Assembly: GCA_964019425.1 (NCBI GenBank)
Contig: OZ025813.1
Location: forward strand, 1,031,498 to 1,095,497
Length of the DNA: 64,000 nucleotides
Source of the DNA: Flectonema sp. DT1601
Lineage: Eukaryota; Euglenozoa; Diplonemea; Diplonemida; Diplonemidae
Direction: 5' to 3'
The notes under the pieces are model-generated. The model did no database searches, was not told the origin of the DNA, and was given only the letters and a program-made list of their open reading frames with translations. Position numbers and translations under genes: made by a program. Of the stretch, positions 3,426 through 61,330 are shown one piece after another (within the stretch, counting starts at the first letter, position 1; each line of letters opens with the position of its first letter).

Positions 3426-6400
3426 ATGAAATCAGCAGTACTCGGACTACTGCTGGCTGCGGGGACGACAGAGGCAGCCAATTGCGGGTGGGCGAAGCCT
3501 CACAATGCAGCGCAGTACCCGCTGTGGCCTTACTGCAACAGAAGACCTGGAGATGGACAAACACTATACCCATACATGGATGATACCATTCCTCCTGCAG
3601 ACGTTGCTCCATACACTTGTACTGGTGGTAAAGTACTTAGACATGACTCTCCTGGTCTTATCTGTGCTGACTACAATCTTGGAGATGAGTTTGCTGGTCC
3701 TTGTACTGATCAAACTTGTTGTGCTGAAGAGTTGTGCAGTACCTACACATGTCAACAAGGAACTCTAAGAGGTGGTGCTAATAAGATTAGCTGTACTTTC
3801 CCATGTAATGATGAAACATGTTGTATTGCTCCTGCTGGTGTACCTAATCATGATGCTCAAGGTTTTATATTCGTTGATAAGGATCCAGGATTATATAGAT
3901 TCGGAGGACAGGCTACTATTATTCGTGCTATGGATGAATCAGACATCACACATTACAGAGTGTATTGGGGATTTGCTTACAGTATTAGAAAGGTTCCTTC
4001 TTGTGGTTTAGGTAATCCAGTTTCATGGACTCAAGTGAAGTGGAGAGATCCAACAAAACTTTTTAAAGAATTTCCAGTTACAGGATGTGATATCACTTTT
4101 GACATCCCGATGGGAACGGCTCCAAATGAAAGGTGTCCAATATCATACGATAGACAGGAGCGTTCTACAGCTCACGCTGATAAGTGTAATCCTCATTATT
4201 TCTTAGTAGTTTCAGTTAATCAGAATGGTGAGAAACCAGTTCTTATCGACCAGTCTCAACAAGTTGGACCAAAGTACACCATCGTTGATTTTGAAGGTAA
4301 TAAAGGATTGCCATGTTTAGAAGCGGGGATTACAATGGGTCACGATTTAATGGGACCTGACGACATTCAATTGGGAGCTTGGAATGGTGTTCCTACTCCT
4401 CTGAAATGTCAGGAACTGTGTGCTGAACACAATGCTAAATTACAACCCGGTGGTATTCCTTGTAGACAATTCACTTGGTCATTAGATAATGGAGGAAGAT
4501 CTTCTGAGAGTTGTTGGATAGAAGCTCAGCTGCTTCAAAAACAACACTACACAGTTCGTTTTATATCTCCTGCTGTTTGTGTAACACCGAATGGTCAAAC
4601 TCCAACAGGTAAAGAGCAACCGAGATGTAGTCGGTGGATAAGACATCAAAATCTAGCGCCTTTTGCTGTAAGCACACGTGATGCATACAAGAATAAGGGA
4701 CCGCACTACGTTCAGTTTCCGAACTTACCAGATGTTCCACTTGGGAAATATGACAACGCAGAGTACTGTAGAAATATGTGTGACTTGGATGCTTTATGTA
4801 CAGGGTTTTCATGGATGAAGAAAGACCCAACTGACACATACTTCCATAAATGTTTATTACACAGAGCTGGTGATTACGAAAACAATTTAGAATCGAACAT
4901 CTTTTATGACACCTGGGTATGCAGCAGAGAAACTCATGCACCATTAATCTCTGGCTTTACTCTCCAAAAAAATCCTTATGGATACAAAAAGTGCAGCTCA
5001 ACACCAACCACTACTCAGTCACTCACAAGTTACGATTGCTGTGCAGAGGCGTGTCGTAATGAAGCTGGTTGTTCAGCTTTTACATTTATGGCTGATGGAA
5101 CTTGCACTACACACTCTGATTGCTCAGCTAAGGATTCTTTTCATAATATTGCAGGATGTACTTACGAGTCTTGCTTTGACGGATTCGGAGGAGCTACTTA
5201 TGTGGCGGATGAAGTAAAGATGCAAATTGTCGACAGATGGCCGCTAACAGGTAAGGGCTCAGCCGAGGGAATCACTGTTGCAGTCCAAAGTAACAGAGGT
5301 CTTGAGGGTGTTGTTGTTCACTGTGTCGCTAGCTTAGACTTAACACAAGTTCCCGTTACAGCTGAAGACCTAATAGCAGGTAACTCAGCACTTATACGAT
5401 ACAGCGCAACGATAACCAACGGAGTTGCGAAGATGATAATACTGAGTGAATACAAAACTTCTAGCAACCAACTAACTCCTGGTACTTATTATGGAGTTAG
5501 ATGTATGGTTGAGAATGCTCTTAGCAAAGGGCTCAAGGCCACGTACACAGAATTATGGATTCCTGTTCAAGATCCACCTGGTTACACTAAAGTAGGTAAT
5601 GGATTCTGTAGAACTTCAGGTTGTAATCCAATTGGAGAAGTTCCTAGTCAGTCTTGTACCTTCTTGGAGTGTAAGGCGTACTGTGACAACGCTCCCGTGT
5701 GTAGCGCTTTTTGGTGGCGTCGCAGTGATGGCTGGTGTCACATCAAAACCACAGCCTGTTCCTACACTTTCGTTAACAATGATAACAACATTCAGTGTTG
5801 GAAACCTGACTCTAATGCGAATGTAGTTCATTACCCTGGAGATACTTATTGTGCTAACTCCTGTCCTGCTACTTTTGGTATAGTTGATACCTGTACTCGA
5901 AAGAGAAGAATGGGTCAATATGATTCCAATTACTTTCTTCCTGACATCACTTCTATGAACTGCCCTATCAAGACGGCAGCGCCTACCTCGGTACCTACGG
6001 CTGTTCCAACAGTTGCTCCAACAGTTGCTCCCACAGCAGTACCTACTGCTGTTCCGACTTTGGTACCAACAGCTGTTCCGACGGTTGCTCCTACAGTAGT
6101 GCCGACAGCTGTCCCAACAGTTGCTCCTACAGCAGTGCCGACAGCTGTTCCGACCATTGCCCCAACAGGAGTTCCTGGTGTTCCGCCAACTGATATGCCT
6201 ACTGCTGTGCCGACTTTAGTACCAACAGCTGTTCCAACCTCTGTACCGACCGCCGTACCAACCGCTGTTCCAACCTCCGTACCGACCGCCGTACCAACCG
6301 CTGTTCCAACCTCCGTACCGACCGCCGTACCAACAGCTGTTCCGACTATTGCCCCAACGGGGGTTCCTGGTGTTCCGGCAACTGTTGTCCCTACCGCCGT

Positions 6401-7376
6401 ACCAACAGCTGTTCCCACCTCCGTGCCGACAACTGTTCCGACCAATACCCCAACAGGAATTCCTGGTGTTCCGCCAACTGCCACGCCAACTACCGTACCA
6501 ACAGCTGTACCGACCATTGCTCCTACGGGCGTTCCCGGTGTTCCGCCAACTGTAGTTCCTACAGCCGTACCTACGACTATTCCGACGGGAGTTCCTGGCG
6601 TTCCACCAACTATCGCACCGACAGCTATTCCGACTGTTGCTCCAACAGGTATTCCAGGCGTTCCACCAACTACCGCACCGACAGGTATTCCAGGCGTTCC
6701 ACCAACTACCGCCCCGACAGGTATTCCAGGCGTTCCACCAACTACCGCCCCGACAGGTATTCCAGGCGTTCCACCAACTACCGCCCCGACAGGTATTCCA
6801 GGCGTTCCACCAACTACCGCACCGACAGGTATTCCAGGCGTTCCACCAACTACCGCACCGACAGGTATTCCAGGCGTTCCACCAACTACCGCACCGACAG
6901 GTATTCCAGGCGTTCCACCAACTACTGCTCCAACAGGTATTCCAGGCGTTCCCCCAACTGACGTTCCAACTTCTGTCCCGGGCAGTGGCAATCCAGGAAA
7001 TACTTCTGCTCCACAGACAGCTATTCCAACCTCCGTACCTCTTGATTCGAATGGGGCTGGTCTGGGAGAGGAAGATGATAGTTCTAACAACTGGTGGATT
7101 ATTGTGATCATCGTTGTGGGATCATTATTAGTCTGTGGAATGATAATTGCCGGATTACTTTACAAAAGGAAGAAGTCAAATGAAATATATCTTTGTGACT
7201 TTCCAGATGTGCCTGAGAGTGAAGAAATGAGTGGCAGCCCCTATGTCAGTCCAGCTGCCAGCAGAAAGGACTCTATGGCTAGTTATCACAGTAGGAGGAA
7301 TTCAGCGATTCAGGATAGTCGTCAGGTCTCTCGTAGAGGAACTGGTGACTCGACTGCCTACTTTAGTACCTTATAG
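3426..7376 (+). CDS. Large type I surface protein: Cys-rich/PAN-like ectodomain, VPT-repeat stalk, TM helix
   Basis: A 1,316-residue single-exon protein starting at an ATG preceded by ataaa. Residues 1-17 form a signal peptide. A Cys-rich N-terminal part with paired cysteines (CCAEELC, CCIAP) follows. At least four PAN/apple-like modules are recognisable from CxxxC and CxxFxW spacing: about 295-375, 437-500, 522-575 and 725-800 (for example CQELCAEH, YCRNMCDLDALC, CCAEACRNEAGC, ECKAYCDNAPVC). PAN modules commonly bind protein or sugar. Residues about 850-1200 are a Pro/Thr/Val stalk of VPTAVPT units ending in nine PTGIPGVPPTTA units, likely extended and O-glycosylated. One membrane helix (about 1222-1246) is followed by a KRKK stop-transfer and a roughly 65-residue Ser-rich tail. 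An adhesion or cell-coat role is inferred. Ligand and family name are unknown. Confidence 0.88.
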   Translation: MKSAVLGLLLAAGTTEAANCGWAKPHNAAQYPLWPYCNRRPGDGQTLYPYMDDTIPPADVAPYTCTGGKVLRHDSPGLICADYNLGDEFAGPCTDQTCCAEELCSTYTCQQGTLRGGANKISCTFPCNDETCCIAPAGVPNHDAQGFIFVDKDPGLYRFGGQATIIRAMDESDITHYRVYWGFAYSIRKVPSCGLGNPVSWTQVKWRDPTKLFKEFPVTGCDITFDIPMGTAPNERCPISYDRQERSTAHADKCNPHYFLVVSVNQNGEKPVLIDQSQQVGPKYTIVDFEGNKGLPCLEAGITMGHDLMGPDDIQLGAWNGVPTPLKCQELCAEHNAKLQPGGIPCRQFTWSLDNGGRSSESCWIEAQLLQKQHYTVRFISPAVCVTPNGQTPTGKEQPRCSRWIRHQNLAPFAVSTRDAYKNKGPHYVQFPNLPDVPLGKYDNAEYCRNMCDLDALCTGFSWMKKDPTDTYFHKCLLHRAGDYENNLESNIFYDTWVCSRETHAPLISGFTLQKNPYGYKKCSSTPTTTQSLTSYDCCAEACRNEAGCSAFTFMADGTCTTHSDCSAKDSFHNIAGCTYESCFDGFGGATYVADEVKMQIVDRWPLTGKGSAEGITVAVQSNRGLEGVVVHCVASLDLTQVPVTAEDLIAGNSALIRYSATITNGVAKMIILSEYKTSSNQLTPGTYYGVRCMVENALSKGLKATYTELWIPVQDPPGYTKVGNGFCRTSGCNPIGEVPSQSCTFLECKAYCDNAPVCSAFWWRRSDGWCHIKTTACSYTFVNNDNNIQCWKPDSNANVVHYPGDTYCANSCPATFGIVDTCTRKRRMGQYDSNYFLPDITSMNCPIKTAAPTSVPTAVPTVAPTVAPTAVPTAVPTLVPTAVPTVAPTVVPTAVPTVAPTAVPTAVPTIAPTGVPGVPPTDMPTAVPTLVPTAVPTSVPTAVPTAVPTSVPTAVPTAVPTSVPTAVPTAVPTIAPTGVPGVPATVVPTAVPTAVPTSVPTTVPTNTPTGIPGVPPTATPTTVPTAVPTIAPTGVPGVPPTVVPTAVPTTIPTGVPGVPPTIAPTAIPTVAPTGIPGVPPTTAPTGIPGVPPTTAPTGIPGVPPTTAPTGIPGVPPTTAPTGIPGVPPTTAPTGIPGVPPTTAPTGIPGVPPTTAPTGIPGVPPTTAPTGIPGVPPTDVPTSVPGSGNPGNTSAPQTAIPTSVPLDSNGAGLGEEDDSSNNWWIIVIIVVGSLLVCGMIIAGLLYKRKKSNEIYLCDFPDVPESEEMSGSPYVSPAASRKDSMASYHSRRNSAIQDSRQVSRRGTGDSTAYFSTL
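5977..6972 (+). repeat. VPT-coding minisatellite inside the surface protein gene
   Basis: In-frame repeats coding VPTAVPT/VPTVAPT units (15-18 bp grain) that grade into longer PTGVPGVPPT units. The 3' part, 6648-6971, holds nine copies of a 36-bp unit (GGTATTCCAGGCGTTCC core) at 6648, 6684, 6720, 6756, 6792, 6828, 6864, 6900 and 6936. Several are identical or differ only at a wobble base, pointing to recent expansion. Its period of 3n also leaves a long false open frame on the opposite strand. Confidence 0.92.
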
Positions 7377-12347: not shown

Positions 12348-15300
12348 ATGAAACCATGGCGCGTGGTTCCATTAGTTCTACTGCAGGCTGTGATCGGATC
12401 CACAAACTGCATAGATCCAGAAACTGGGAGACCTTGCAGTCCCCAAGTATTAGGTTCTCCATATTACAAAGGCTCTCCTGACTATAAGGATGCTCCAATA
12501 CATGATACAGGATCGCCTGTTTCATCACCAGCTTATCAAGATTCTCCCCAGGGCAAGTTTGACAAGACACCGCAGGGTCAGCATGTAGACACTCCCGAAT
12601 TTAAAAGTTCACCTCAGTTTGCGCAGTCACCTGAGAGCCAGTCCAAGACACCTGAAAACCAATACATGATGTCACCTGAATTCAAGGATACTCCCCAAGG
12701 GAAGTTCGATAAGACCCCGCAAGGTCAGCATGTTGACACTCCCGAATTCAAAAGCTCACCTCAGTTTGCACAGTCGCCTGAGAGCCAGTCCAAGACACCT
12801 GAAAACCAATTCATGATGTCACCTGAATTTAAGGATTCACCGCAGGGTAAGTTCGATAAGACACCTCAGGGTCAACACGTAGACTCTCCCGAGTTCAAGG
12901 CTTCACCAGAGTACATCATCTTCTCACCTGAGAGTCAGAATCTGAGTCCTGAACATCAACACATGAATACACCTGAGTACAAGGATTCTCCGCAGGGTAA
13001 GTTTGACAAGACACCTCAGGGTCAACACGTAGACTCTCCAGAGTTCAAGGCTTCACCTGAGTTCTCGCAATCACCTGATGGCAAGGCTCTAACACCTGAC
13101 AATCAATATCTTGCTTCTCCTGAGTATAAAGATTCACCGGATTTCTTCATCACCACTCCAAGAGGACAGCAGGTAGGATCTCCTGAATACAAGGATTCCC
13201 CTCAAGGTAAGTTTGATAAGACACCTCAAGGTCAGTTCGTTGACACTCCTGTGTACAAAGATTCTCCTGCTTTCCTGAAATCGCCTGCTGGTCAAGCACT
13301 AACTCCTGAAAACCAATATCAGGCATCACCTGAATACAAAGACTCACCTGATTTCTTTATTACGACACCGAAGGGTCAGCTAACAACCACTCCTGAATAC
13401 AAAGACTCTCCGCAGGGTAAGTTCGATAAGACACCTCAAGGTCAGCACGTAGACTCTCCCGAGTTCAAGGCTTCACCAGAGTACATCATCTTCTCACCTG
13501 AGAGTCAGAACCTGAGTCCTGAACATCAACACATGAATACACCTGAGTACAAGGATTCTCCTCAAGGAAAGTTTGACAAGACACCGCAGGGTCAACACGT
13601 AGACACACCCGAGTTCAAGGCTTCACCAGAGTTCTCGCAATCACCTGATGGCAAGGCTCTGGCACCTGACAATCAATATCATGCTTCACCTGAGTATAAA
13701 GATTCACCGGATTTCTTCATCACTACTCCAAGAGGACAGTTGACAACGTCACCTGAATACAAGGATTCCCCTCAAGGTAAGTTTGACAAGACACCGCAGG
13801 GTCAGATCGTTGATACTCCGGAATACAAGAATTCACCAGTGTTCTGGAAGTCACCTGCTGGTCAAGCACTAACTCCAGAGAATCAATATCAGGCATCACC
13901 TGAATACAAAGACTCGCCGGATTTCTTTATTACGACACCGAAGGGTCAGCTAACAACCACTCCTGAATACAAAGACTCTCCGCAGGGGAAGTTTGATAAG
14001 ACACCACAAGGTCAGCACGTAGACTCTCCCGAGTTCAAGGCTTCACCAGAGTACATCATCTTCTCACCTGAGAGTCAGAACCTGAGTCCTGAACATCAAC
14101 ACGTGAATACACCTGAGTACAAGGATTCTCCTCAAGGAAAGTTCGATAAGACACCTCAGGGTCAGCAGGTAGACACACCAGAGTTTAAGGCTTCACCTGA
14201 GTTCTCGCAATCACCTGATGGCAAGGCTCTGTCACCTGACAATCAATATCATGCTTCTCCTGAGTATAAAGATTCACCGGATTTCTTCATCACCACTCCA
14301 AGAGGACAGCAGGTAGGATCTCCTGAATACAAGGATTCCCCTCAAGGTAAGTTCGATAAGACTCCTCAAGGTCAGTTTGTTGACACTCCTGTGTTCAAGG
14401 ATTCTCCTGCTTTCTTGAAATCGCCTGCTGGACTATCTCTGACCCCAGAGAATCAATATCAGGCATCACCTGAATACAAAGACTCACCTGATTTCTTTAT
14501 AACGACACCGAAGGGTCAGCTAACAACCACTCCTGAATACAAAGACTCTCCGCAGGGGAAGTTCGATAAGACACCACAAGGTCAGCACGTAGACACACCC
14601 GAATACAAGGCTTCACCAGAGTTCATCATCTTCTCACCTGAGAGTCAGAACCTGAGTCCTGAACATCAACACATGAATACACCTGAGTACAAGGATTCTC
14701 CGCAGGGTAAATTTGACAAGACACCGCAGGGTCAACACGTAGACACACCCGAGTTCAAGGCTTCACCTGAGTTCTCGCAATCACCTGATGGCAAGGCTCT
14801 AGCACCTGACAATCAATATCATGCTTCTCCTGAGTATAAAGATTCACCGGATTTCTTCATCACCACTCCAAGAGGACAGTTGACAACGTCACCTGAATAC
14901 AAGGATTCCCCTCAAGGTAAGTTCGATAAGACTCCTCAAGGTCAGATCGTTGACACTCCGGAATACAAGAATTCACCAGTGTTCTGGAAGTCACCTGCTG
15001 GTCAAGCACTAACTCCTGAAAACCAATATCAGGCATCACCTGAATACAAAGACTCGCCGGAATTCTTTATTACGACACCGAAGGGTCAGCTAACAACCAC
15101 TCCTGAATACAAAGACTCTCCGCAGGGGAAGTTCGATAAGACACCTCAAGGTCAGCACGTAGACTCTCCCGAGTTCAAGGCTTCACCAGAGTACATCATC
15201 TTCTCACCTGAGAGTCAGAACCTGAGTCCTGAACATCAACACATGAATACACCTGAGTACAAGGATTCTCCGCAGGGTAAATTTGACAAGACACCGCAGG

Positions 15301-18300
15301 GTCAACACGTAGGCACACCCGAGTTCAAGGCTTCACCTGAGTTCTCGCAATCACCTGATGGCAAGGCTCTGTCACCTGACAATCAATATCATGCTTCTCC
15401 TGAGTATAAAGATTCACCGGATTTCTTCATCACCACTCCAAGAGGACAGCAGGTAGGATCTCCTGAATACAAGGATTCCCCTCAAGGTAAGTTCGATAAG
15501 ACACCTCAAGGTCAGTTCGTTGACACTCCTGTGTTCAAGGATTCTCCTGCTTTCTTGAAATCGCCTGCTGGACTATCTCTGACCCCAGAGAATCAATATC
15601 AGGCATCACCTGAATACAAAGACTCACCTGATTTCTTTATCACGACACCGAGGGGGCAGCAAATCAATACCCCTGAATATAAAGACTCACCTCAAGGAAA
15701 ATTTGATAAGACACCACAAGGGCAGTTTGTTGACACACCTGAATACAAGTCATCTCCTCAATTCGCTTTGTCACCAGGAAGTCAATCACTCACACCTGAT
15801 AATCAGTACCACGAATCCCCTCAATACAAAGACTCACCAGTTTATTTCGTAAAAACACCTGAAGGGAAGTTAACCACTACACCTGAATACAAAGACTCTC
15901 CGCAGGGTAAGTTCGATAAAACTCCGCAAGGTCAGCACGTAGACTCTCCCGAGTACAAGGCTTCACCAGAGTACATCATCTTCTCACCTGAGAGTCAGAA
16001 TCTGAGTCCTGAACATCAACACATGAATACACCTGAGTACAAGGATTCTCCGCAGGGTAAATTTGACAAGACACCGCAGGGTCAACACGTAGACACACCC
16101 GAGTTTAAGGCTTCACCTGAGTTCTCGCAATCACCTGATGGCAAGGCTCTGGCACCTGACAATCAATATCATGCTTCTCCTGAGTATAAAGATTCACCGG
16201 ATTTCTTCATCACTACTCCAAGAGGACAGTTGACGACGTCACCTGAATACAAGGATTCCCCTCAAGGTAAGTTTGACAAGACACCGCAAGGTCAGATCGT
16301 TGACACTCCGGAATACAAGAATTCACCAGTGTTCTGGAAGTCACCTGCTGGTCAAGCACTAACTCCAGAGAATCAATATCAGGCATCACCTGAATACAAA
16401 GACTCACCTGATTTCTTTATTACCACACCACGAGGACAGTTGACGACTTCTCCTGAATACAAGGATTCCCCTCAAGGAAAGTTTGACAAGACTCCTCAAG
16501 GTCAGTATGTTGATACACCAGAATTTAAGAACACCCCGTCCTATGACAAGTCACCGGAATCCTTGGCTGCTACTCCTGAACACCAATTCCTGCAATCGCC
16601 TGAGTACAAAGACTCACCTGATTTCTTTATTACAACACCGAAGGGTCAGCTAACAACCACTCCTGAATACAAAGACTCTCCGCAGGGGAAGTTCGATAAG
16701 ACACCTCAAGGTCAGCACGTAGACTCTCCCGAGTTCAAGGCTTCACCAGAGTACATCATCTTCTCACCTGAGAGTCAGAACCTGAGTCCTGAACATCAAC
16801 ACATGAATACACCTGAGTACAAGGATTCTCCGCAGGGTAAATTTGACAAGACACCGCAGGGTCAACACGTAGACACACCCGAGTTTAAGGCTTCACCTGA
16901 GTTCTCGCAATCACCTGATGGCAAGGCTCTGGCACCTGACAATCAATATCATGCTTCTCCTGAGTATAAAGATTCACCGGATTTCTTCATCACTACTCCA
17001 AGAGGACAGTTGACGACGTCACCTGAATACAAGGATTCCCCTCAAGGTAAGTTCGATAAGACACCTCAAGGTCAGTTCGTTAACACGCCCGTTTTTAAGA
17101 ATTCTCCCGACTTTTTCGATTCACCAGCTGGTCAATCTTTGTCTCCCGAAAATCAGTATCACGGAACTCCTCAGTACAAGGATTCACCTGATTTCTTTGT
17201 AACCACACCAGAGGGAAAGCAAACTACTTCACCTGAATACAAGGACTCTCCGCAGGGTAAGTTCGATAAGACACCACAAGGTCAGCACGTAGACTCTCCC
17301 GAGTTCAAGGCTTCACCAGAGTACATCATCTTCTCACCTGAGAGTCAGAACCTGAGTCCTGAACATCAACACATGAATACACCTGAGTACAAGGATTCTC
17401 CGCAGGGTAAATTTGACAAGACACCGCAGGGTCAACACGTAGACTCACCCGAGTTCAAGGCTTCACCTGAGTTCTCGCAATCACCTGATGGCAAGGCTCT
17501 GGCACCTGACAATCAATATCATGCTTCTCCTGAGTATAAAGATTCACCGGATTTCTTCATCACTACTCCAAGAGGACAGTTGACAACGTCACCTGAATAC
17601 AAAGATTCCCCTCAAGGTAAGTTCGATAAGACTCCTCAAGGTCAGTTTGTTGACACTCCTGTGTTCAAGGATTCTCCTGCTTTCTTGAAATCGCCTGCTG
17701 GACTATCTCTGACCCCAGAGAATCAATATCAGGCATCACCTGAATACAAAGACTCACCTGATTTCTTTATAACGACACCGAAGGGTCAGCTAACAACCAC
17801 TCCTGAATACAAAGACTCTCCGCAGGGGAAGTTTGATAAGACACCACAAGGTCAGCACGTAGACTCTCCCGAGTTCAAGGCTTCACCAGAGTACATCATC
17901 TTCTCACCTGAGAGTCAGAACCTGAGTCCTGAACATCAACACGTGAATACACCTGAGTACAAGGATTCTCCGCAGGGTAAATTTGACAACACACCTCAGG
18001 GTCAACACGTAGACTCACCCGAGTTCAAGGCTTCGCCTGAGTTCTCGCAATCACCTGATGGCAAGGCTCTGGCACCTGACAATCAATATCATGCTTCTCC
18101 TGAGTATAAAGATTCACCGGATTTCTTCATCACCACTCCAAGAGGACAGCAGGTAGGATCTCCTGAATACAAGGATTCCCCTCAAGGTAAGTTTGATAAG
18201 ACACCGCAAGGTCAGTTCGTTGACACTCCAGTATTTAAAGATTCCCCGAGCTTTTTATCATCTCCTCAGGCTCTCAGTTTCTCTCCTGACAACCAGTTCA

Positions 18301-21300
18301 TGAAAACTCCTGAATACAAAGATTCTCCTCAATTCTTTATAAGTACTCCTGAGGGTAAATATACTAACTCACCTGTGTACAAGGATTCCCCTCAAGGAAA
18401 GTTTGACAAGACTCCTCAAGGTCAGTATGTTGATACACCAGAATTTAAGAACACCCCGTCCTATGACAAGTCACCGGAATCCTTGGCTGCTACTCCTGAA
18501 CACCAATTCCTGCAATCGCCTGAGTACAAAGACTCACCTGATTTCTTTATTACAACACCGAAGGGTCAGCTAACAACCACTCCTGAATACAAAGACTCTC
18601 CGCAGGGTAAGTTCGATAAGACACCTCAAGGTCAGCACGTAGACTCTCCCGAGTTCAAGGCTTCACCAGAGTACATCATCTTCTCACCTGAGAGTCAGAA
18701 CCTGAGTCCTGAACATCAACAAATGAATACACCTGAGTACAAGGATTCTCCTCAAGGAAAGTTTGACAAGACACCGCAGGGTCAACACGTAGACACACCC
18801 GAGTTCAAGGCTTCACCTGAGTTCTCGCAATCACCTGATGGCAAGGCTCTGGCACCTGACAATCAATATCATGCTTCTCCTGAGTATAAAGATTCACCGG
18901 ATTTCTTCATCACCACTCCAAGAGGACAGTTGACAACATCACCTGAATACAAAGATTCCCCTCAAGGTAAGTTTGATAAGACACCTCAAGGTCAGTTCGT
19001 TGACACGCCCGTTTTTAAGAATTCTCCCGACTTTTTCGATTCACCAGCTGGTCAATCTTTGTCTCCCGAAAATCAGTATCACGGAACTCCTCAGTACAAG
19101 GATTCACCTGATTTCTTTGTAACCACACCAGAGGGAAAGCAAACTACTTCACCTGAATACAAGGACTCTCCGCAGGGTAAGTTCGATAAGACACCACAAG
19201 GTCAGCACGTAGACTCTCCCGAGTTCAAGGCTTCACCAGAGTACATCATCTTCTCACCTGAGAGTCAGAATCTGAGTCCTGAACATCAACACATGAATAC
19301 ACCTGAGTACAAGGATTCTCCGCAGGGTAAGTTTGACAAGACACCTCAGGGTCAACACGTAGACTCTCCAGAGTTCAAGGCTTCACCTGAGTTCTCGCAA
19401 TCACCTGATGGCAAGGCTCTAACACCTGACAATCAATATCTTGCTTCTCCTGAGTATAAAGATTCACCGGATTTCTTCATCACCACTCCAAGAGGACAGC
19501 AGGTAGGATCTCCTGAATACAAGGATTCCCCTCAAGGTAAGTTTGATAAGACACCTCAAGGTCAGTTCGTTGACACTCCTGTGTACAAAGATTCTCCTGC
19601 TTTCCTGAAATCGCCTGCTGGTCAAGCACTAACTCCTGAAAACCAATATCAGGCATCACCTGAATACAAAGACTCACCTGATTTCTTTATTACGACACCG
19701 AAGGGTCAGCTAACAACCACTCCTGAATACAAAGACTCTCCGCAGGGTAAGTTCGATAAGACACCTCAAGGTCAGCACGTAGACTCTCCCGAGTTCAAGG
19801 CTTCACCAGAGTACATCATCTTCTCACCTGAGAGTCAGAACCTGAGTCCTGAACATCAACACATGAATACACCTGAGTACAAGGATTCTCCTCAAGGAAA
19901 GTTTGACAAGACACCTCAAGGTCAGCATGTAGACTCTCCAGAGTTCAAGGCTTCACCTGAGTTCTCGCAATCACCTGATGGCAAGGCTCTGGCACCTGAT
20001 AATCAATATCATGCTTCTCCTGAGTATAAAGATTCACCGGATTTCTTCATCACCACTCCAAGAGGACAGTTGACAACGTCACCTGAATACAAGGATTCCC
20101 CTCAAGGTAAGTTCGATAAGACTCCTCAAGGTCAGATCGTTGACACTCCGGAATACAAGAATTCACCAGTGTTCTGGAAGTCACCTGCTGGTCAAGCACT
20201 AACTCCTGAAAACCAATATCAGGCATCACCTGAATACAAAGACTCGCCGGATTTCTTTGTAACGACTCCAAGAGGACAGTTGACGACTTCTCCTGAATAC
20301 AAGGATTCCCCGCAGGGTAAATTCGATAGGACACCTGCTGGGCAGTTTTTTGACTCCCCAAGTTTCAAAAATTCTCCGTCATTTGCACAATCACCGGATT
20401 CGCTTTCACAAACACCTGAAAACCAGTACTTACAAACGCCTGAATACAAAGACTCACCTGATTTCTTTATTACGACACCGAAGGGTCAGCTAACAACCAC
20501 TCCTGAATACAAAGACTCTCCGCAGGGGAAGTTTGATAAGACACCACAAGGTCAGCACGTAGATTCTCCCGAGTTCAAGGCTTCACCGGAGTACATCATC
20601 TTCTCACCTGAGAGTCAGAACCTGAGTCCTGAACATCAACACATGAATACACCTGAGTACAAGGATTCTCCGCAGGGTAAATTTGACAAGACACCGCAGG
20701 GTCAACACGTAGACACACCCGAGTTTAAGGCTTCACCTGAGTTCTCGCAATCACCTGATGGCAAGGCTCTGGCACCTGACAATCAATATCATGCTTCTCC
20801 TGAGTATAAAGATTCACCGGATTTCTTCATCACTACTCCAAGAGGACAGTTGACAACGTCACCTGAATACAAGGATTCCCCTCAAGGTAAGTTCGATAAG
20901 ACACCTCAAGGTCAGATCGTTGACACTCCGGAATACAAGAATTCACCAGTGTTCTGGAAGTCACCTGCTGGTCAAGCACTAACTCCAGAGAATCAATATC
21001 AGGCATCACCTGAATACAAAGACTCACCTGATTTCTTTATTACCACACCACGAGGACAGTTGACGACTTCTCCTGAATACAAGGATTCCCCGCAGGGTAA
21101 ATTCGATAGGACACCTGCTGGGCAGTTTTTTGACTCCCCAGTTTTCAAAAATTCTCCGTCGTTTGCGCAATCACCGGATTCACTTTCACAAACACCTGAA
21201 AACCAGTACTTACAAACGCCTGAATACAAAGACTCACCTGATTTCTTTATTACGACACCGAAGGGTCAGCTAACAACCACTCCTGAATACAAAGACTCTC

Positions 21301-24300
21301 CGCAAGGAAAATGGGACAGAACTCCTCAGGGAAAACTGGACGATTCGCCTTTGTACAAGTCTTCACCGGAATACATCATCTTCTCACCTGAGAGTCAGAA
21401 CCTGAGTCCTGAACATCAACACATGAATACACCTGAGTACAAGGATTCTCCTCAAGGAAAGTTTGACAAGACACCGCAGGGTCAACACGTAGATTCACCC
21501 GAGTTTAAGGCTTCACCTGAGTTTTCGCAATCACCTGATGGCAAGGCTCTGTCACCTGACAATCAATATCATGCTTCTCCTGAGTATAAAGATTCACCGG
21601 ATTTCTTCATCACCACTCCAAGAGGACAGTTGACGACGTCACCTGAATACAAGGATTCCCCTCAAGGTAAGTTCGATAAGACACCGCAAGGTCAGATCGT
21701 TGACACTCCGGAATACAAGAATTCACCAGTGTTCTGGAAGTCACCTGCTGGTCAAGCACTAACTCCAGAGAATCAATATCAGGCATCACCTGAATACAAA
21801 GACTCACCTGATTTCTTTATTACCACACCACGAGGACAGTTGACGACTTCTCCTGAATACAAGGATTCCCCTCAAGGAAAGTTTGACAAGACTCCTCAAG
21901 GTCAGTATGTTGATACACCAGAATTTAAGAACACCCCGTCCTATGACAAGTCACCGGAATCCTTGGCTGCTACTCCTGAACACCAATTCCTGCAATCGCC
22001 TGAGTACAAAGACTCGCCGGATTTCTTTATTACGACACCGAAGGGTCAGCTAACAACCACTCCTGAATACAAAGACTCTCCGCAGGGGAAGTTCGATAAG
22101 ACACCTCAAGGTCAGCACGTAGACTCTCCCGAGTTCAAGGCTTCACCAGAGTACATCATCTTCTCACCTGAGAGTCAGAACCTGAGTCCTGAACATCAAC
22201 ACATGAATACACCTGAGTACAAGGATTCTCCGCAGGGTAAATTTGACAAGACACCGCAGGGTCAACACGTAGACACACCCGAGTTTAAGGCTTCACCTGA
22301 GTTCTCGCAATCACCTGATGGCAAGGCTCTGGCACCTGACAATCAATATCATGCTTCTCCTGAGTATAAAGATTCACCGGATTTCTTCATCACTACTCCA
22401 AGAGGACAGTTGACGACGTCACCTGAATACAAAGATTCCCCTCAAGGTAAGTTCGATAAGACACCTCAAGGTCAGTTCGTTGATACTCCGGAGTACAAGA
22501 ACTCTCCAGATTTTTGGAGCTCTCCTGAGGGGCAGGCGATAACACCTGAAAATAAATATATGCAAACCCCCAAATACAAAGATTCTCCTCAATTCTTTAT
22601 AAGTACTCCTGAGGGTAAATATACTAACTCACCTGTGTACAAGGATTCCCCTCAAGGAAAGTTTGACAAGACTCCTCAAGGTCAGTATGTTGATACACCA
22701 GAATTTAAGAACACCCCGTCCTATGACAAGTCACCGGAATCCTTGGCTGCTACTCCTGAACACCAATTCCTGCAATCGCCTGAGTACAAAGACTCACCTG
22801 ATTTCTTTATTACGACACCGAAGGGTCAGCTAACAACCACTCCTGAATACAAAGACTCTCCGCAGGGGAAGTTTGATAAGACACCACAAGGTCAGCACGT
22901 AGACTCTCCCGAGTTCAAGGCTTCACCAGAGTACATCATCTTCTCACCTGAGAGTCAGAACCTGAGTCCTGAACATCAGCACATGAATACACCTGAGTAC
23001 AAGGATTCTCCTCAAGGAAAGTTTGACAAGACACCGCAGGGTCAACACGTAGACACACCCGAGTTTAAGGCTTCACCTGAGTTCTCGCAATCACCTGATG
23101 GCAAGGCTCTGGCACCTGACAATCAATATCATGCTTCTCCTGAGTATAAAGATTCACCGGATTTCTTCATCACCACTCCAAGAGGACAGTTGACAACATC
23201 ACCTGAATACAAAGATTCCCCTCAAGGTAAGTTTGATAAGACACCTCAAGGTCAGTTCGTTGACACTCCAGCTTTTAAGGATTCTCCTGCTTATGATACG
23301 TCTCCTGATTGGGTAGCTGTGTCTCCGAAGCAGCAGTACTTAGGATCACCTGAGTACAAGAATTCTCCAGATTACTTGATTACAACACCTCAAGGACAGT
23401 TAAGTGCATCACCTGAATACAAAGATTCTCCTCAAGGAAAGTGGGACAAAACACCGCAAGGACAATACGTAGACACTCCCGAGTACAAGGCTTCACCAGA
23501 GTACATCATCTTCTCACCTGAGAGTCAGAACCAAAGTCCGGAACATAAATATACGAATACACCTGAGTACAAGGATTCCCCTCAAGGAAAGTTTGATAAG
23601 ACACCAGCTGGTCAATACTACGATTCCCCTGATTATAAGATTTCCCCAGACTTCAGTAATTCTCCTGCAGGACAAGCAATGTCTCCATTAAATCATTACC
23701 ACACTTCACCTGAATATAAAGATTCACCTGATTTCTTTATAACAACACCAAAGGGTCAATTAACTACTACTCCAGAGTATAAAGATTCCCCTCAAGGAAA
23801 GTGGGATAGAAGTCCTCAAGGTCAATATGTTGAATCTCCTGATTTCAAGAATTCTCCAAACTATGATGTCAGCCCTGAAGCGAAGTGGAGAAGTCCAGAA
23901 GAGGGTTTTAAGAGATCACCTGAATACGTGTTAAGTCCAGAATACTATGCGAGTACTCCTGAAGGTAAGTTTGCAGCGTCTCCAGAGTTCAAGGATTCAC
24001 CTCAAGGAAAGTTTGTAGACACCCCGTTAGGTAAATACGATGACAGCCCAGCCTTTAAGAGTTCTCCCTCGTATTACGACAGCCCTGATTGGAAGCGTCA
24101 CCTTCCAGAAGAAGATAATGACGACACAAGTCTAATTTGGTTAGTTCCTGTCTTACTTTCTGTTGTTGCCTGCTGTGTTCTCATTATTTTTCTCGTCTGG
24201 CGCCGCAGACGCAGACTCCAGAACCAGGCGAAGTTGCACAAGGCCACTCAGGAATTCTTAGTTGACGTTGAAGGAGAGGTTTGTTTATTTTATTCTTCTG

Positions 24301-24544
24301 TTGTGTTTCCTTTGGATTGGTGAGATCACAATTAAAAGTTCCAGTGGCAAACCGACCCACTAAATAATAAAAAAACAAAACAAAACAGGATATGGAATTA
24401 GTTTACGTCTTTGATGAGAAGGAAGGAGAAGCGCAAGAATTGCAGGAACTCTCAGACGGTTCTAGTGACATCTATAGACCTCCTTCAAGAGTGCAATCTG
24501 ACAAGCCAACTTCAGAGGCAGCCTCTGACAACGCGTTGGATTAG
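12348..24544 (+). CDS. Giant S/T-P repeat type I membrane protein (about 4,028 aa, two exons)
   Basis: Exon 1 is 12348-24278, the intron is 24279-24388 (GTTTGT...ACAG, phase 0), and exon 2 is 24389-24544. Reading through the intron would end the protein at 24323 in low-complexity residues. Splicing instead gives a 51-residue acidic tail, so the spliced model is preferred. Residues 1-21 are a signal peptide (MKPWRVVPLVLLQAVIG). The ectodomain of about 3,900 residues has a Ser-Pro or Thr-Pro every 6-8 residues (units such as TPEYKDSPQGKFDKTPQG), almost no cysteine, and alternating acidic and Lys residues. One membrane helix near 3925-3948 (LIWLVPVLLSVVACCVLII) is followed by RRRRR. I recognise no family. 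An extended, possibly glycosylated or phosphorylated filament, coat or adhesive is an inference. It shares the topology of the 3426-7376 protein upstream. Confidence 0.9.
12450..24100 (+). repeat. Higher-order coding repeat, 570/780-bp superunits
   Basis: The module coding ASPEYIIFSPESQ occurs 17 times, starting at 12901, 13471, 14041, 14611, 15181, 15961, 16741, 17311, 17881, 18661, 19231, 19801, 20581, 21361, 22141, 22921 and 23491. Steps are always exactly 570 or 780 bp. A 570-bp superunit is 50+70+70 residues, and the 780-bp form has one more 70-residue block. Some distant blocks are near-identical (for example about 12961-13440 and 19291-19770, 6,330 bp apart). The first and last few hundred bases are more diverged. 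Confidence 0.93.
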
Positions 24545-51007: not shown

Positions 51008-52270
51008 ATTTCGTACCTTTCTTTTAAAGTCTAGCGAATGGCATTCCTTCCGTGTGGTGATTCCCCTGAACGCACAAACAAATACGCCTTGCGTGTCGGG
51101 GTCGGGGGGGAAAGGTTTTGCCGCTGACTTTTGGCTATTAATTTGTTGTTTGTTCTGTTCGTTTGTTTGCAATCATTCTTTCTTCTTTTTATTATCAGAA
51201 AGGACATGTCACAAGTGATGTGGTGGAGAGGGGAGAGTAAGTTAAGTGGAAAATGGTACCACTTGCCGTGTGATGGAAGGAGGGATCATTGAGAGGGCTT
51301 TGCGGTGATGGTGACATGAGAGGGTGTTTGCAATTTTGTAACTTTTGTATATATTTTCATTTTTTTTTAACAGGAGCTGAACTTATGATGAGGTGAGCAG
51401 AAGCTTCACTGAACCTCCTCTCGGTGTGTGTGTATGCATGTATGTGTTGTGTATTGTTTGTTGAAACTCTGACGAGTTCTCATTACTCTTTGTGTGTGTG
51501 TGTTGTGTGTTCATATGTGTAGTTTGAGTGCTCGTGTGTCTGTGTCAGATGTTTCTGTGAAACTATTTCTTTTGCCTTCCTTGAATTTACTGAACTTGTT
51601 CTTCGTGTTGTGATTTGTGGTGAAGTTGTGTTGTGTTTGTGTTGGAATTAAGTGTCGTGTTGTTTAACTCTGATGAGTTCTTATTGTGGTTTGAGTGCTG
51701 GTGATTTTTGCACGTGTTTCGTTTTTGAGTGCCCATTGGTTTGTGTGTGTCGCGTGTCCCGGGGGGGTGGGCATGTTTGATCTGTGTGGAACTATTTCTT
51801 ATTGATTGTTAACCATAAATCTGCTTTTTAAGATTTTACACCTTTCCTTGATTGAACTGAACTTGCTTCGTGTTGTGATTTGTGGTGAAGTTCGATAAGT
51901 GACGTGGGAGTGGAATGCTTTATGTGGTATGTTTTGTTATATCAATATTTCCCGCCTTCAGCCGCGCACAAGTCGATAAGTGACGTGGGAATGGAATGAT
52001 TTATTTGATATGTTTTATGGTTCTTATTGATTTGTGGCTACCAATTCTGATAGGTTACCTTCTTTTGTGAGCTTCTTATAATATACCGCGGTGTGCCTTC
52101 TCCATGATCCCCAAATGGGCCCTCATTATTCCTCAGGATTCTCAGTTGGAAATGTACTCTCTTTTGGTGGTAAAAGCAAAGTTCAGATCTCTTGATATTT
52201 TATTGCTGGATTGGCATGATGTTACTTCCTTTCCTTCTATCAGGCTTAAGACAAAACAAAGCACAAAAAA
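51008..52270. other. Non-coding part of duplicated unit, upstream of the 389-aa gene
   Basis: GT-rich sequence with TGTG microsatellites (about 51420-51545). Internal repeats include CTTGCTTCGTGTTGTGATTTGTGGTGAAGTT-like phrases (near 51600 and 51868), and GATAAGTGACGTGGGA occurs twice (about 51894 and 51973). A poly-T plus ACAG acceptor-like site lies at about 51360-51373. It may be the promoter and leader of the gene that follows. Confidence 0.5.
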
Positions 52271-53440
52271 ATGTTTGCCATCATCGGATTTGTGGGAGTA
52301 TTCTGGTGGACGGTGTTCTGCTTTGGATGCGGTCTGCCTGACTTGCCTCCAGTTGGATTGATGCTGGGAATGTTCGAAGAGCCCGCCGAAGTTGTTGCGA
52401 CAACGACGACGACGACGAACACCACCACCACCACCACCACCACTATTATCGACAAGTGGTGTTGTATTATCGACAACAACACCTCCACTGACGCCAACTC
52501 CAGCTCCAGCGACAACGCCAACGCCAAAGCCAACGCCAAAGCCAACGCCAACGTCAACGGCAACACCAACGTCAACGAGTCTGCGTGTCATGCTGACGTG
52601 CCGCACTCTGTTGGTAAAAGTATTCCGCACCGTGTGGGTGACACGATGAGGAGGGCGTTTGGTTCCGCGAGCAGAGTGGCCGTCGAAGAGCTGATGAGGA
52701 GCAGCCAATGCTCCGATCACAGTGCCACCGATAGACTCGTGAAGTGCTTCGGGATCCGGTTCGCGATAACCCGGGTGAAGCTTCTCGATGTGGTGCGCAC
52801 TTGTGAAGCGGAACTCTCCGACATCACGCACGGTGTCTGGGGTGCGCTTGAGCTCGAGTGTGTCAGGTTTGCTGACCTCGTAATGGCTTGGGTGAATGAA
52901 GCAGCCAGTTCAGCGGCTGACTTCATGTTCTCTGTACTTTCTCTGTTTGATCGGTTTCTCTTGTTTTCGAGAAGCGTTCGCTCCGAACTGGAGGCATGTT
53001 TCCTTTCTTTTTTTGCTGGACCCATTGGTGCTTATCGCTCGGTCGAGGCAGATCTGAAGTCTGCGTCCGAGGTGATTCGCGGGGGGTTCGGGAAAGTGGT
53101 TGCATGTACGGAGATTGCTGACCAGAGTGTTAAGCTGTTTTGCATCAATCACCGGATTGATCAGAGCAAGAAACACTTGGAACGCATCTTCAGGGGATGG
53201 AAAGTCGAGGCGGCAGCCGTAGTCAATAAAGTTGACATTAAGTATTTGTTTGAAGCTGTCGCCGCGCTTTCCGATGCCTGTTCTTTTCTTCTTTGGATTG
53301 TTTTGTTGTTGGTATTGCTCTCCTTTGAAATTGTCAATTTCTTGGGTTTGTTTGCCGGCATGAGTAGCGGAGAAAAAAGGAAGTTTCGGCTTGCGCAGCA
53401 GCTGTTTGCGGCTTGTGTTTTTCATGTTTGTTGTCGTTAA
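52271..53440 (+). CDS. Secreted/membrane protein of the duplicated unit, copy 1 (389 aa)
   Basis: ATG in context aaaaaaATGttt. Residues 1-25 are a strong signal peptide (MFAIIGFVGVFWWTVFCFGC). Residues about 42-105 form a low-complexity Thr/Asn/Ala linker from trinucleotide repeats (TTTTTTNTTTTTTTT, NANAKANAKANANV), likely glycosylated. Residues about 120-330 are helical and mostly amphipathic with scattered cysteines (EVIRGGFGKVVACTEIADQSV). A membrane helix lies near 338-360 (FLLWIVLLLVLLSFEIVNFL), followed by a basic stretch. No family is recognised. The only base change from copy 2 inside the gene (52288) is silent in this frame but changes residues in the overlapping frames, which weakly favours this frame. 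Duplicated surface genes next to satellite arrays are often variable antigens or adhesins; here that is inference. Confidence 0.68.
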   Translation: MFAIIGFVGVFWWTVFCFGCGLPDLPPVGLMLGMFEEPAEVVATTTTTTNTTTTTTTTIIDKWCCIIDNNTSTDANSSSSDNANAKANAKANANVNGNTNVNESACHADVPHSVGKSIPHRVGDTMRRAFGSASRVAVEELMRSSQCSDHSATDRLVKCFGIRFAITRVKLLDVVRTCEAELSDITHGVWGALELECVRFADLVMAWVNEAASSAADFMFSVLSLFDRFLLFSRSVRSELEACFLSFFAGPIGAYRSVEADLKSASEVIRGGFGKVVACTEIADQSVKLFCINHRIDQSKKHLERIFRGWKVEAAAVVNKVDIKYLFEAVAALSDACSFLLWIVLLLVLLSFEIVNFLGLFAGMSSGEKRKFRLAQQLFAACVFHVCCR

Positions 53441-53854
53441 ATGAATTCTGTTATTGTTTGAAAAAAACAGCAGCCCAACAAAAAAAAAAAGCAAAACCAA
53501 AACCAAAACCAAAACCAAAACCAAAACCAAAACCAAAACCAAAACTAAAACTAAAAAAAAAAAAAAAATAATAATAATAAGCGACCTTTGTACCAACTTC
53601 CCTTTAACCCAATTAATATGTGCGTATAATTATTCAAAAAAAAAAAAAGAAACAAAAACGATCGACTCCAACAAAAAAAAAAAAAAAAAAAAAAAATTCA
53701 AAACAAAAAGAATGTACCGCACACTTTTCTTTTTTTTTTTTTTTTTTTTTCCTCCTTTCATTTTTTTCATCTATCCTCCTCCTTGTTTTCCTTCCTGTTA
53801 TGAAGAAAAATACCGTATTAAACTTTGAAGACAATTAACTAACTCTGCCATGAG

Positions 53855-53891
<37 letters not shown>

Positions 53892-54130
53892 CCATGTTTT
53901 TTTTTCGTTTGAAGTTCAAAGAAAAATGGTTCTGTCTTTTTTTTTTTTAGTTGTTTTCTAGTTTTTAGATGCCGCTTCTTCATTTCTGACAGCTGCAATT
54001 GCATTGCTGCTTTTGTGAATTAAGGTAGGTGAGATGGATTTCCTTTACACGAACTTCTCTTTTCTTTTTTTTTTTCCCCCGACAAGTAGTAGTAGAAAGT
54101 ACGGGCCATTCACATCTGGGTTAGTAAGTT

Positions 54131-54161
<31 letters not shown>

Positions 54162-54545
54162 TTGTTGTTGTTGTCTTGTCGTCGAGCGAGAGAGTACAAC
54201 TACTCTCTCGGCCGATAGACATTTTCATTTTCATTTTTCTCATAACCAACAACAAGAAATTTTCTTTAACAACACGGGGGCGAGATGTGAATGGTCTTTT
54301 GGAGAATTGTGTCGGATTTTATTTTATTTTATTTTATTTTATTTTTTTTTTTTTTTGCTGGCACACGAAAACTAATAAACGCACTGAAAGAAGGAAAACC
54401 GGAACCCGGAAGTTGCAACTCCGATGCTCTGGCTCTTCACTTCGACGAACAACAAAAGGCTGAAAAGAGAGAATATTATTATTTTCTTGATTTGCTTTGA
54501 GATTGTGGAGTTTTTGTGTCCAATTTTTCATTTCTTCTTTTCAAT
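53441..54545. other. Microsatellite-rich 3' part of duplicated unit
   Basis: Successive simple repeats: (CAAAAC)n at about 53489-53545, A run at 53554-53568, ATA at 53568-53580, A run at 53674-53695, T run at 53731-53750, (GA)n at 53853-53887, (GTCGTT)n then (GTT)n at 54130-54172, and (TTTTA)n at 54317-54343. The inverted pair GAGAGAGTA/TACTCTCTC lies near 54188-54208. Open frames here are simple-repeat artefacts. Confidence 0.8.
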
Positions 54546-56292
54546 TTAACCCATTAAGGACGGGGGGTCCACTACAGTGGTTATTTTGAAATTTTATTTT
54601 CGCTAAGGGGAAAACCCGGCTAACGCTACCCAGGGGGGGTGTAATCGAGGCCGTTTCGCGCCGAATCTTGGGTGGGATGGCGTGGTTCGCTGTGTTTTTA
54701 TTCATGAAATTCAAAACTAATAATCGAAATTTTACCACCTAACAAGAAGTTTCGTGTGCCTGTTGAAATTGATACAAGTTCGGCGTCCTATGAAAGTCTG
54801 ATGATGATGGATTCTGTATCGGAGTCGTCATCTGACAGCAACACAGCAAAGGTATCAAAGTGGGGGGGCAAAACCAAGAGAATCCCCAGGGAAAAACGGA
54901 AAGGACCTACCCAGAGTGTGAGCGACTTTAATGAAATGAGCGAATTGAAGGCATCCAACTCATTTTCACTGATCATGTGCTTAAAATGATATTTCGACAC
55001 ACTCTTGCCTACCCGATTGACAAAGAGACGTCCATGAAGTCACTAGAAGTTGGTGAACTTAATATACTTTCTCCGTAATTTCCACACTGCTAACAAACAC
55101 ATTCCTGCTTCTTATGTTCATAGTCTTGTTAAACCCCATAATAATTAAGGGCATTGGGTGACGTTTGACAATTTCAATTCGTCATACGCATTTCTTGTTT
55201 TGATGTTAGCGAAAGGGTTCCACTGTGTTGGAACAGCCTGACGGAACAGAAAGGGAGTTCTGTTGATGTTACAAAACCGAAGGCTACCCCTGGACCGGGA
55301 CGACTAAGCAAATCGGAAGTGAAAGAAAAACCGAAGAATCTTTCTGCTTCTTACCTTCAGTCAAGCACGGCATCCACCATATAAAGTGGAGAGACTCAAA
55401 GGATGTGCATCTTTTCAGTACTCTTCCCTTACGTGAGCACTGTGTCGATGTATATCGCTGGATTAGGAAGAGAAATAAAAAAGAAAAAGTGCCGATCAAA
55501 CTACCGTGCAAGTAGACAGGTACACCAAAACGATGGGAGGTGTTAACCTGATGGATAGCGTGAAGGGAAGGGCGAACAGAAACCTTCAAACTAAACGATG
55601 GCATCTAAAGGTTTTCGACTACTTGCTGAAAGTTTCAATGTTCAACACGTTTACCCTTCAAAAGAAATGCGGTAAGGATACTGGTACCTACATACGGTAT
55701 GTAGAGGAGCTCGCTATGCAACTCGTCAGTGACGGGACGTCGAGAGACAAGACAACCAATACCACATCTACTATTGACTCGGGTTCGCACTTTTCACACA
55801 TGTTCAGCACCACTGAGCACTATCCATCAATATTTGGCGCTGCTAAACAATGTAAGTATCACAATACTCGAGTGAGGACTACTTATGGATGCCAGGGGTG
55901 TAAGGTTTTTATGTGTCCTGCACCCTGTTTTGGCAAATACCACTTAAATCTTACAAAGGGGAGAACATTTGCGTCCCATACCACTACCTCTGTGTCGGGA
56001 GGTGCTATCCGGGAAGAATGTACGAAGGGGAAGACCCCTGCACTCACAACAACATCAAAATTGAAGAGGCGCAGGGAGTCATAAGAACTGAGCTTATTTT
56101 TGTCTTTGGTGGTGTTTTCATTTGTTCTGTTCACCCTTTAGGTGGTGAATGTGTGTGTATTTTTAACGGGCAGGCAATGGCGGTTCACTTTGTCACATCA
56201 CCTTTCCGAGCCCCCCTACCCCTTTTCCCCGTTAGCTCTTTTTTCAAAAAAAGTCAAAAAACCGGGTTTTACCCCCGTCCGTAATGGGTTAA
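54546..56292. mobile_element. piggyBac-like DNA transposon, decayed, with TTAA target sites
   Basis: TTAA at 54546-54549 and again at 56289-56292 flank a 1,739-bp body. The ends are inverted: the left starts CCCATTAAGGACGGGGGG and the right end's complement starts CCCATTACGGACGGGGG. Similarity continues inside (GCTAAC, GGGGAAAA, AAAACCCGG blocks). TTAA duplication with CCC ends is the hallmark of the piggyBac superfamily. The inner transposase is broken and shorter than the usual 2.4-3 kb element, so the copy is non-autonomous. It predates the segmental duplication, because 75 bp of its left end is present in the second copy. Confidence 0.93.
54756..56084 (+). pseudogene. piggyBac-type transposase remnant
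   Basis: Recognisable pieces in order on the + strand. An acidic/Ser-rich N-terminal part starts near 54756. Around 55168-55235 a DNFNSSY..L...GFHCVGT-like piece corresponds to the family's DNFFTS..GT region. Near 55380 a KWRDSKDVHLFST piece matches the W-D-K-V-LLST block. At about 55515-55560, YTKTMGGVNLMD matches the diagnostic MGGVDLMD. Near 55850-55950 is a Cys/His zinc-ribbon (CKYH, TTYGCQGCKVFMCPAPCF) typical of the C-terminus. The pieces lie in different frames, with a stop and frameshift between the LLST and MGGV blocks, and most of the central catalytic part is deleted. The enzyme cannot be active. Confidence 0.88.
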
Positions 56293-60607: not shown

Positions 60608-61027
60608 ATGAATTCTGTTATTGTTTGAAAAAAACAGCAGCCCAACAAAAAAAAAAAGCAAAACCAAAACCAAAACCAAAACCAAAACCAAAACCAAAAC
60701 CAAAACCAAAACCAAAACTAAAACTAAAAAAAAAAAAAAAATAATAATAATAAGCGACCTTTGTACCAACTTCCCTTTAACCCAATTAATATGTGCGTAT
60801 AATTATTCAAAAAAAAAAAAAGAAACAAAAACGATCGACTCCAACAAAAAAAAAAAAAAAAAAAAAAAATTCAAAACAAAAAGAATGTACCGCACACTTT
60901 TCTTTTTTTTTTTTTTTTTTTTTCCTCCTTTCATTTTTTTCATCTATCCTCCTCCTTGTTTTCCTTCCTGTTATGAAGAAAAATACCGTATTAAACTTTG
61001 AAGACAATTAACTAACTCTGCCATGAG

Positions 61028-61060
<33 letters not shown>

Positions 61061-61299
61061 CCATGTTTTTTTTTCGTTTGAAGTTCAAAGAAAAATGGTT
61101 CTGTCTTTTTTTTTTTTAGTTGTTTTCTAGTTTTTAGATGCCGCTTCTTCATTTCTGACAGCTGCAATTGCATTGCTGCTTTTGTGAATTAAGGTAGGTG
61201 AGATGGATTTCCTTTACACGAACTTCTCTTTTCTTTTTTTTTTTCCCCCGACAAGTAGTAGTAGAAAGTACGGGCCATTCACATCTGGGTTAGTAAGTT

Positions 61300-61330
<31 letters not shown>

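Follow-up and report, generated by a model that had tools for sequence, protein, structure and literature searches.

A giant Ser/Thr-Pro repeat protein with an exact 50/70-residue register and a predicted membrane anchor in a euglenozoan genome

What kind of protein carries a Ser-Pro or Thr-Pro dipeptide every few residues along almost its entire length, and what could such a chain be for? The question is posed by a giant open reading frame on the plus strand (12348..24323; 3,991 aa if unspliced) of the window, by which we mean the whole stretch of DNA analysed here, the final 64 kb of contig C34 in a source genome of 89.5 Mb and 92 contigs. An initial annotation of the locus had proposed that the product could form an extended coat filament, an adhesive or a mechanical stalk. 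As described below, the giant Ser/Thr-Pro repeat itself is confirmed, and this interpretation is partly supported.

The open reading frame and its ends

The five other frames across 12348-24323 contain 147, 410, 217, 257 and 161 stops, and their longest open run is 104 aa. The 61 copies of the repeat core comprise 40 distinct nucleotide sequences, which together with the single open frame rules out an artefact of assembly or frame. The Ser/Thr-Pro array (12438..24086, plus strand) spans 3,883 residues and contains 542 Ser/Thr-Pro motifs (340 SP and 202 TP) within residues 31-3912. This bears out the initial description of such motifs every 6-8 residues over about 3,900 residues: the 541 spacings are of 8 (212), 6 (209), 7 (107), 15 (11), 13 (1) and 4 (1) residues. 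In 500 composition-preserving shuffles, the mean number of motifs was 102.5 and the maximum 132. Every one of the 554 prolines of the array follows Ser (340), Thr (202) or Ala (12), so that Pro-Pro does not occur, and the Pro-to-Pro distance is 6, 7 or 8 almost throughout. The net charge of the array is -201.

The ends of the protein suggest how it is placed in the membrane. Residues 1-20 (12348..12407, plus strand) are hydrophobic and constitute a candidate signal peptide, judged by hydropathy. A signal peptide had been claimed outright; the N-terminus is indeed hydrophobic, with a modest hydropathy peak of 1.36. The segment that follows, Cys21...Cys30 (12408..12437, plus strand), contains the sole cysteines of the predicted ectodomain, since the other three in the frame (residues 3942, 3943 and 3979) lie in the helix or in candidate intron sequence. 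With five cysteines in 3,991 aa, the protein has indeed almost no Cys. Beyond the array, a juxtamembrane acidic run, EEDNDD (24108..24125, plus strand), precedes a predicted transmembrane helix with a CC pair (residues ≈ 3929-3951; 24132..24200, plus strand), and RRRRR follows directly (24201..24215, plus strand). The single strongly hydrophobic stretch, covered by 19-residue Kyte-Doolittle windows starting at 3925-3936, agrees with the one membrane helix reported previously, as does RRRRR after it.

The initial assignment of an acidic tail and of an end at 24544 depends on the splicing of a candidate GT-AG intron (24279..24388, plus strand; GAG|GTTTGTTT ... CAAAACAG|GAT); the unspliced frame stops at 24323. 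Removal of this intron would yield a protein of 4,028 aa with a candidate last exon at 24389..24544 (plus strand), a stop at 24544 and the tail VEGEDMELVYVFDEKEGEAQELQELSDGSSDIYRPPSRVQSDKPTSEAASDNALD, an acidic cytoplasmic tail that ends in SEAASDNALD. The end coordinate given initially agrees with this intron. Other GT-AG pairs nearby give longer products, two of which share the stop at 24544, and our choice of intron is therefore a judgement.

The same elements bear on topology. Ser/Thr-Pro is the minimal site of proline-directed kinases, and the array could in principle serve such kinases in the cytoplasm if the topology were reversed or the protein not secreted. The hydrophobic N-terminus and RRRRR right after the helix predict an N-out orientation by the positive-inside rule, and we regard a cytoplasmic array as highly improbable.

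Several features bear on the source of the genome. A pattern for the spliced-leader end, CAGTTTCTGTACTNNATTG, has 719 matches in the genome, and its reversed control has 0. Among the matches listed, those on C16 and C20 lie in tandem arrays with units of ≈ 623 and ≈ 610 bases, respectively; the 623-base unit (C16:1432300-1434000, L052) contains AACCAACGATTCTAAAGCTACAGTTTCTGTACTTTATTG followed by GT, and a 5S rRNA gene. Group 14 among euglenozoan leaders is, we assume, that of Diplonema. An ascorbate peroxidase found its best PDB matches in 7opt, 7oqr and 3riv, which we take to be kinetoplastid proteins. Fifteen of the 19 open reading frames of ≥ 250 aa in the window are on the plus strand, as expected under polycistronic transcription; the four on the minus strand are antisense to a repeat or within the satellite. 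The group 14 leader, as given in an excerpt of PMC3795323, differs from the leader here at 2 of 39 bases. That the genome is euglenozoan is well supported, and it is likely to be that of a diplonemid.

Register and constraint of the repeat

Modules were counted by the motif [ST]P-x4-[ST]PQGK[FW], which occurs 61 times (12525..24086, plus strand). The 60 spacings take three values only, 49 (2), 50 (17) and 70 aa (41), and after two 49-aa modules they are always exactly 50 or 70. The order is mostly 50-70-70 or 50-70-70-70, and the final module extends up to the membrane anchor. There are seven Ser/Thr-Pro motifs in each module of 49 or 50 aa and ten Ser/Thr/Ala-Pro motifs in each module of 70 aa, which accounts for the mean of 7.0-7.14 residues per motif; the spacings of 15 arise because column 42 is Ala-Pro in 11 of the 41 modules of 70 aa. 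The unit of the array is thus an exact modular register of 50 or 70 residues instead of the loose TPEYKDSP/SPQGKFDK/TPQGQ grammar that had been read from it.

Could copies as uniform as these arise with little regard to their sequence? If the protein were a generic mucin-like spacer or coat brush, its length and hydration would matter and its sequence would not, and recent duplication or gene conversion would explain the likeness of the copies. Homogenisation of this kind is indicated by the DNA: the 17 superunits are 80-99% alike, the membrane-proximal last one being at 68-72%, and some distant pairs are 98-99% alike, which suggests block duplication or conversion inside the array. Also in line with a spacer, the differences between modules, which fall mostly at third codon positions, show a third-position excess (1.56); of the four comparator frames taken from the genome, C8 is lower at 0.54, and the other three have similar values (C76, 1.42; C33, 1.66; a neighbour with a PAN domain, 1.55). 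This indicates that constraint at the protein level is shared with those frames, and that register and composition are what is particular to the giant array.

The divergence of the cores argues against a mere spacer. In pairwise comparisons, which are non-independent among repeat copies and in which dS is close to saturation, the 61 cores (22 aa) have reached a dS of 1.30 at unchanged length with few replacements (dN 0.060, dN/dS 0.047). The corresponding dN/dS was 0.119 among the 17 modules of 50 aa and 0.127 among the 41 modules of 70 aa; within three positional classes of the latter it was 0.169, 0.189 and 0.170.

Residues are also held at particular positions. In 41 of 41 modules of 70 aa there is Ser at columns 7, 35 and 56, Thr at column 63 and Tyr at columns 4 and 53, and Thr occupies column 15 in 40 of 41. 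The Ser codons at columns 35 and 56 are TCN except for a single AGY at each. Other positions are freer: columns 1, 23, 29, 42 and 50 exchange Ser and Thr (column 42 also admits Ala), and columns 26, 32, 47 and 59 exchange Phe and Tyr. The shorter modules provide exceptions: column 4 is Phe in a single one of the 17 modules of 50 aa, and the second 49-aa module has both Phe at that column and Thr at column 7.

The composition and spacing of the array likewise speak against a generic brush. Aromatic residues make up 12.0% of the giant protein versus 1.5-1.9% of three giants of the same genome and 7.2% of the PAN-domain neighbour, and the largest gap between aromatics in the array is at most 19 residues, against a minimum of 36 in shuffles. 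Two Pro-rich giants of the genome have 15 and 5 distinct anchor-motif spacings versus 3 here, for anchors that were hand-chosen and of different kinds. We consider it unlikely that the protein is a spacer whose sequence is of no consequence.

An extended stalk and alternative functions

A glycosylated stalk or scaffold fits the data best. The protein is probably a type I plasma-membrane glycoprotein whose ectodomain is a single chain, extended and unfolded, in which 61 modules place a Ser/Thr-Pro about every seven residues. Its N-terminus would enter the ER, and Ser and Thr adjoining Pro would be O-glycosylated, with members of the PF11397 family as candidate enzymes. Sugars, prolines and net negative charge would together hold the chain extended, and the regularly placed aromatics may be points of lateral contact or of contact with a partner. 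The Cys pair (21 and 30) would then lie at the distal tip, the helix and RRRRR would serve as the anchor, the short acidic tail would be on the cytoplasmic side, and the repeat count would set the length of the stalk.

By arithmetic, the 3,883 residues of the array have a contour of ≈ 1.2 μm as a polyproline-II chain. The stalk had been put at hundreds of nanometres; the extended form that this presupposes remains our reading, but the figure is below the maximum. AlphaFold2 gave no fold for two superunits (380 residues; mean pLDDT 31.1, pTM 0.12, no residue ≥ 50), which is consistent with an extended form. The input consisted of nine rows from one gene, 77-97% identical to the first, and the low confidence is therefore weak evidence for disorder. 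On the same prediction (mean pLDDT 31) we rejected a folded β-helix, which the regular triplets of 21-22 residues had brought to mind.

How heavily the chain might be glycosylated is less certain. Usual mucins are not known to be rich in charged and aromatic residues, and these make up ≈ 36% of the giant protein, which makes heavy glycosylation uncertain. The mucins of Trypanosoma cruzi are small proteins, and the enzyme that puts α-GlcNAc on them is presumably a PF11397 member. PF11397 (GlcNAc-transferase family) has 11 matches in the genome on five contigs (C33, C35, C9, C2 and C16), all above the cut-off and with a best E of 4.1e-76; one of the 11 contains an in-frame TAG. No match was obtained in 14 control genomes. 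According to an excerpt of PMC3769586, the T. cruzi enzyme acts on mucin threonines, whereas 340 of the 542 sites here are Ser, which speaks against a glycosylated stalk. The T. cruzi mucins resemble the giant protein as euglenozoan surface proteins with O-glycosylated Thr, a modification only proposed here, and are set apart by description, being GPI-anchored and Thr-rich (PMC3769586, in part).

That glycosylated Pro-rich chains can build filaments of hundreds of nanometres is known from Chlamydomonas. There, as reported in an excerpt of PMC11015965, the mastigoneme core protein MST3 (Cre06.g309951) has 8,572 residues, and its 42 repeats, each of 19 nm, lie in a filament ≈ 800 nm long. Compared by description, both proteins are giant, membrane-anchored and extended, with dozens of Pro-based repeats, and in both the repeat number is proposed to set length. 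MST3 differs in having P11-P13 blocks and a PKD-like membrane domain; the giant protein has neither, has a single helix and contains many charged and aromatic residues. MST3 may thus serve as the nearest working analogy, and the giant protein falls outside an MST3-like class for want of poly-Pro blocks and a PKD-like domain.

By this analogy, the protein might be a structural ruler or scaffold in which each module binds one copy of a partner and filament length follows from the module count. The exact register over the array, the conserved Tyr and the position-specific Ser and Thr would suit such a role, and for MST3 itself the repeats were proposed to set a maximum length and the proline patterns to bind partners (PMC11015965, in part). 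Against this, the array has no Pro-Pro, Pfam detects no PKD-like domain, and the partner is hypothetical. We know of no flagellar hairs in diplonemids. In an excerpt of PMC8061765, mastigonemes in Euglenozoa are mentioned for kinetoplastids only. An MST3-like ruler is conceivable but doubtful.

We also entertain, as a speculative proposal, a ruler that evolved independently, in which each module of 50 or 70 residues would bind or template a single unit of a filament on the cell surface or flagellum; the choice of Ser versus Thr, together with Tyr, would then be a site-specific modification code and not generic O-glycosylation. A stalk of up to ≈ 1.2 μm from one gene, with a strict register and site-specific Ser, Thr and Tyr, could open up the study of filaments on the surface or flagellum of this lineage. 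It could also be a natural system for how repeat number sets filament length and for how modifying enzymes tell Ser-Pro from Thr-Pro.

The aromatic residues raise the alternative of an adhesive or cross-linker that works through the Tyr of its EYKD motifs, converted to DOPA, dityrosine or sulfated Tyr, together with Lys and Ser/Thr-Pro. The motif [S/T]PEYKD has Tyr in 90 instances and Phe in 3, and there are 193 Tyr in the array. Mussel foot protein 1, a secreted protein that has no membrane anchor, has a decapeptide repeat with Tyr, Lys, Ser/Thr and Pro and is similar in composition to the short repeat here. Yet Phe (265) is more frequent than Tyr and takes its place at several columns, and the hydrophobic stretch with RRRRR points to a membrane-anchored protein, unlike a secreted adhesive of the mussel type. 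An adhesive thus appears quite improbable. The stalk proposed above can also be compared, by description, with the filamentous proteophosphoglycan of Leishmania, a filamentous modified glycoprotein of another euglenozoan, which differs in being Ser-rich, secreted and phosphoglycosylated.

Relatives within the genome and neighbouring sequence

The initial annotation had recognised no described family, and our searches agree. A Pfam scan of the giant frame returned only CcmH, below threshold (12.9 bits versus a cut-off of 25, at 3926-3968), and no match to PF04886 (PT); the repeat had no match in the PDB at E ≤ 1, and the literature text searched by repeat strings contained none. Scans of a viral contig collection (one pattern match, 0 confirmed) and of a collection of prokaryotic genome contigs (four pattern matches, 0 confirmed) led us to reject a viral or prokaryotic origin. 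Giant Pro-rich surface stalks are known as such; what sets this one apart is its repeat, which was not found in Pfam, the PDB or the viral and prokaryotic collections scanned.

Almost all copies of the repeat in the genome lie in the giant gene. A 190-aa repeat query gave at least 26 matches, every one inside the giant frame. The divergent last module gave at least 63, of which 61 were in the giant frame and the others were weak (C36, E 0.0033; C5, E 0.087). The C36 match lies in a 74-aa frame, flanked by one frame with a repeat domain and another with a membrane anchor; used as a reverse query, the C36 piece returned at least 95 matches, itself and rows in the giant frame (best E 7.1e-4). On C5, the match falls within a Cys-rich frame of 1,131 aa, in its juxtamembrane stretch. 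Both weak matches may be due to distant relationship or to chance. Since both adjoin membrane anchors, the array may have grown out of a short juxtamembrane stalk, which we offer as a lead only. Short Ser/Thr-Pro stretches with aromatics near the membrane anchors of other proteins (L068 and L067) are possible relatives of the array.

The end of the protein has more counterparts than the repeat. A genome search with its 62-aa tail yielded 21 matches at E ≤ 1, 20 of them non-self (best E 5.5e-7, on C73), in frames of up to 5,049 aa. The giant protein combines an acidic/Asn run with a Trp close to where the helix begins, Cys within the helix and basic residues following it. Of nine non-self loci, chosen partly by their similarity to the tail, all nine have Cys in the helix, seven a Trp near its start and five three or more Asp/Glu ahead of it. 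The C33 tail agrees with this style, as does L067, which was reached by another route; L068 lacks the Trp, and two C8 frames lack both Trp and Cys. The common style among large single-pass proteins here could reflect convergence. Several of the matching frames that we inspected contain CAP, EGF-like, TSP1-like or other Cys-rich modules, read by eye, and Thr/Pro stalks.

Accounting for the giant protein as an isolated oddity is therefore not tenable, because the same genome encodes further single-pass proteins of large or giant size; many share a similar anchor, and several have Cys-rich modules and/or Thr/Pro stalks. One is the window neighbour at 3426-7376, a frame of 1,316 aa with a PAN domain, a long PT repeat (PF04886, 44.5 bits; cut-off 26.2) and the anchor style of the giant protein. 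This neighbour and the 5,049-aa frame on C76 are, like the giant protein, large or giant single-pass proteins with a Pro-rich stalk and a similar anchor. The C76 and C33 stalks differ from that of the giant protein: they carry little charge and few aromatics, their Pro mostly recurs every 1-7 residues, and their unit spacing is more variable. Three of the tail matches lie within 20 kb on C8 (C8:641000-664500, L043-L045) in frames of 2,623, 1,894 and 1,357 aa; two of these have Thr-rich repeats and near-identical ends.

The right-hand part of the window is repetitive. A direct 3.6-kb duplication (51008-54611 and 58175-61780) is 99.7% identical with 10 gap positions and has a 389-aa frame in each copy. 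Between the copies, a 192-aa frame (55506-56084) looks like a transposase remnant, by a motif that we take to be of the piggyBac type; Pfam gave no match at 1e-3. A satellite with the 8-base unit AAACCCGC occupies 61781-64000 at the contig end, and a 24-mer taken from it matches the genome 115,729 times, on both strands. A telomere is not supported, because the plus strand is C-rich at this right-hand end, the reverse of the usual telomere strand orientation; a subtelomeric satellite is likelier.
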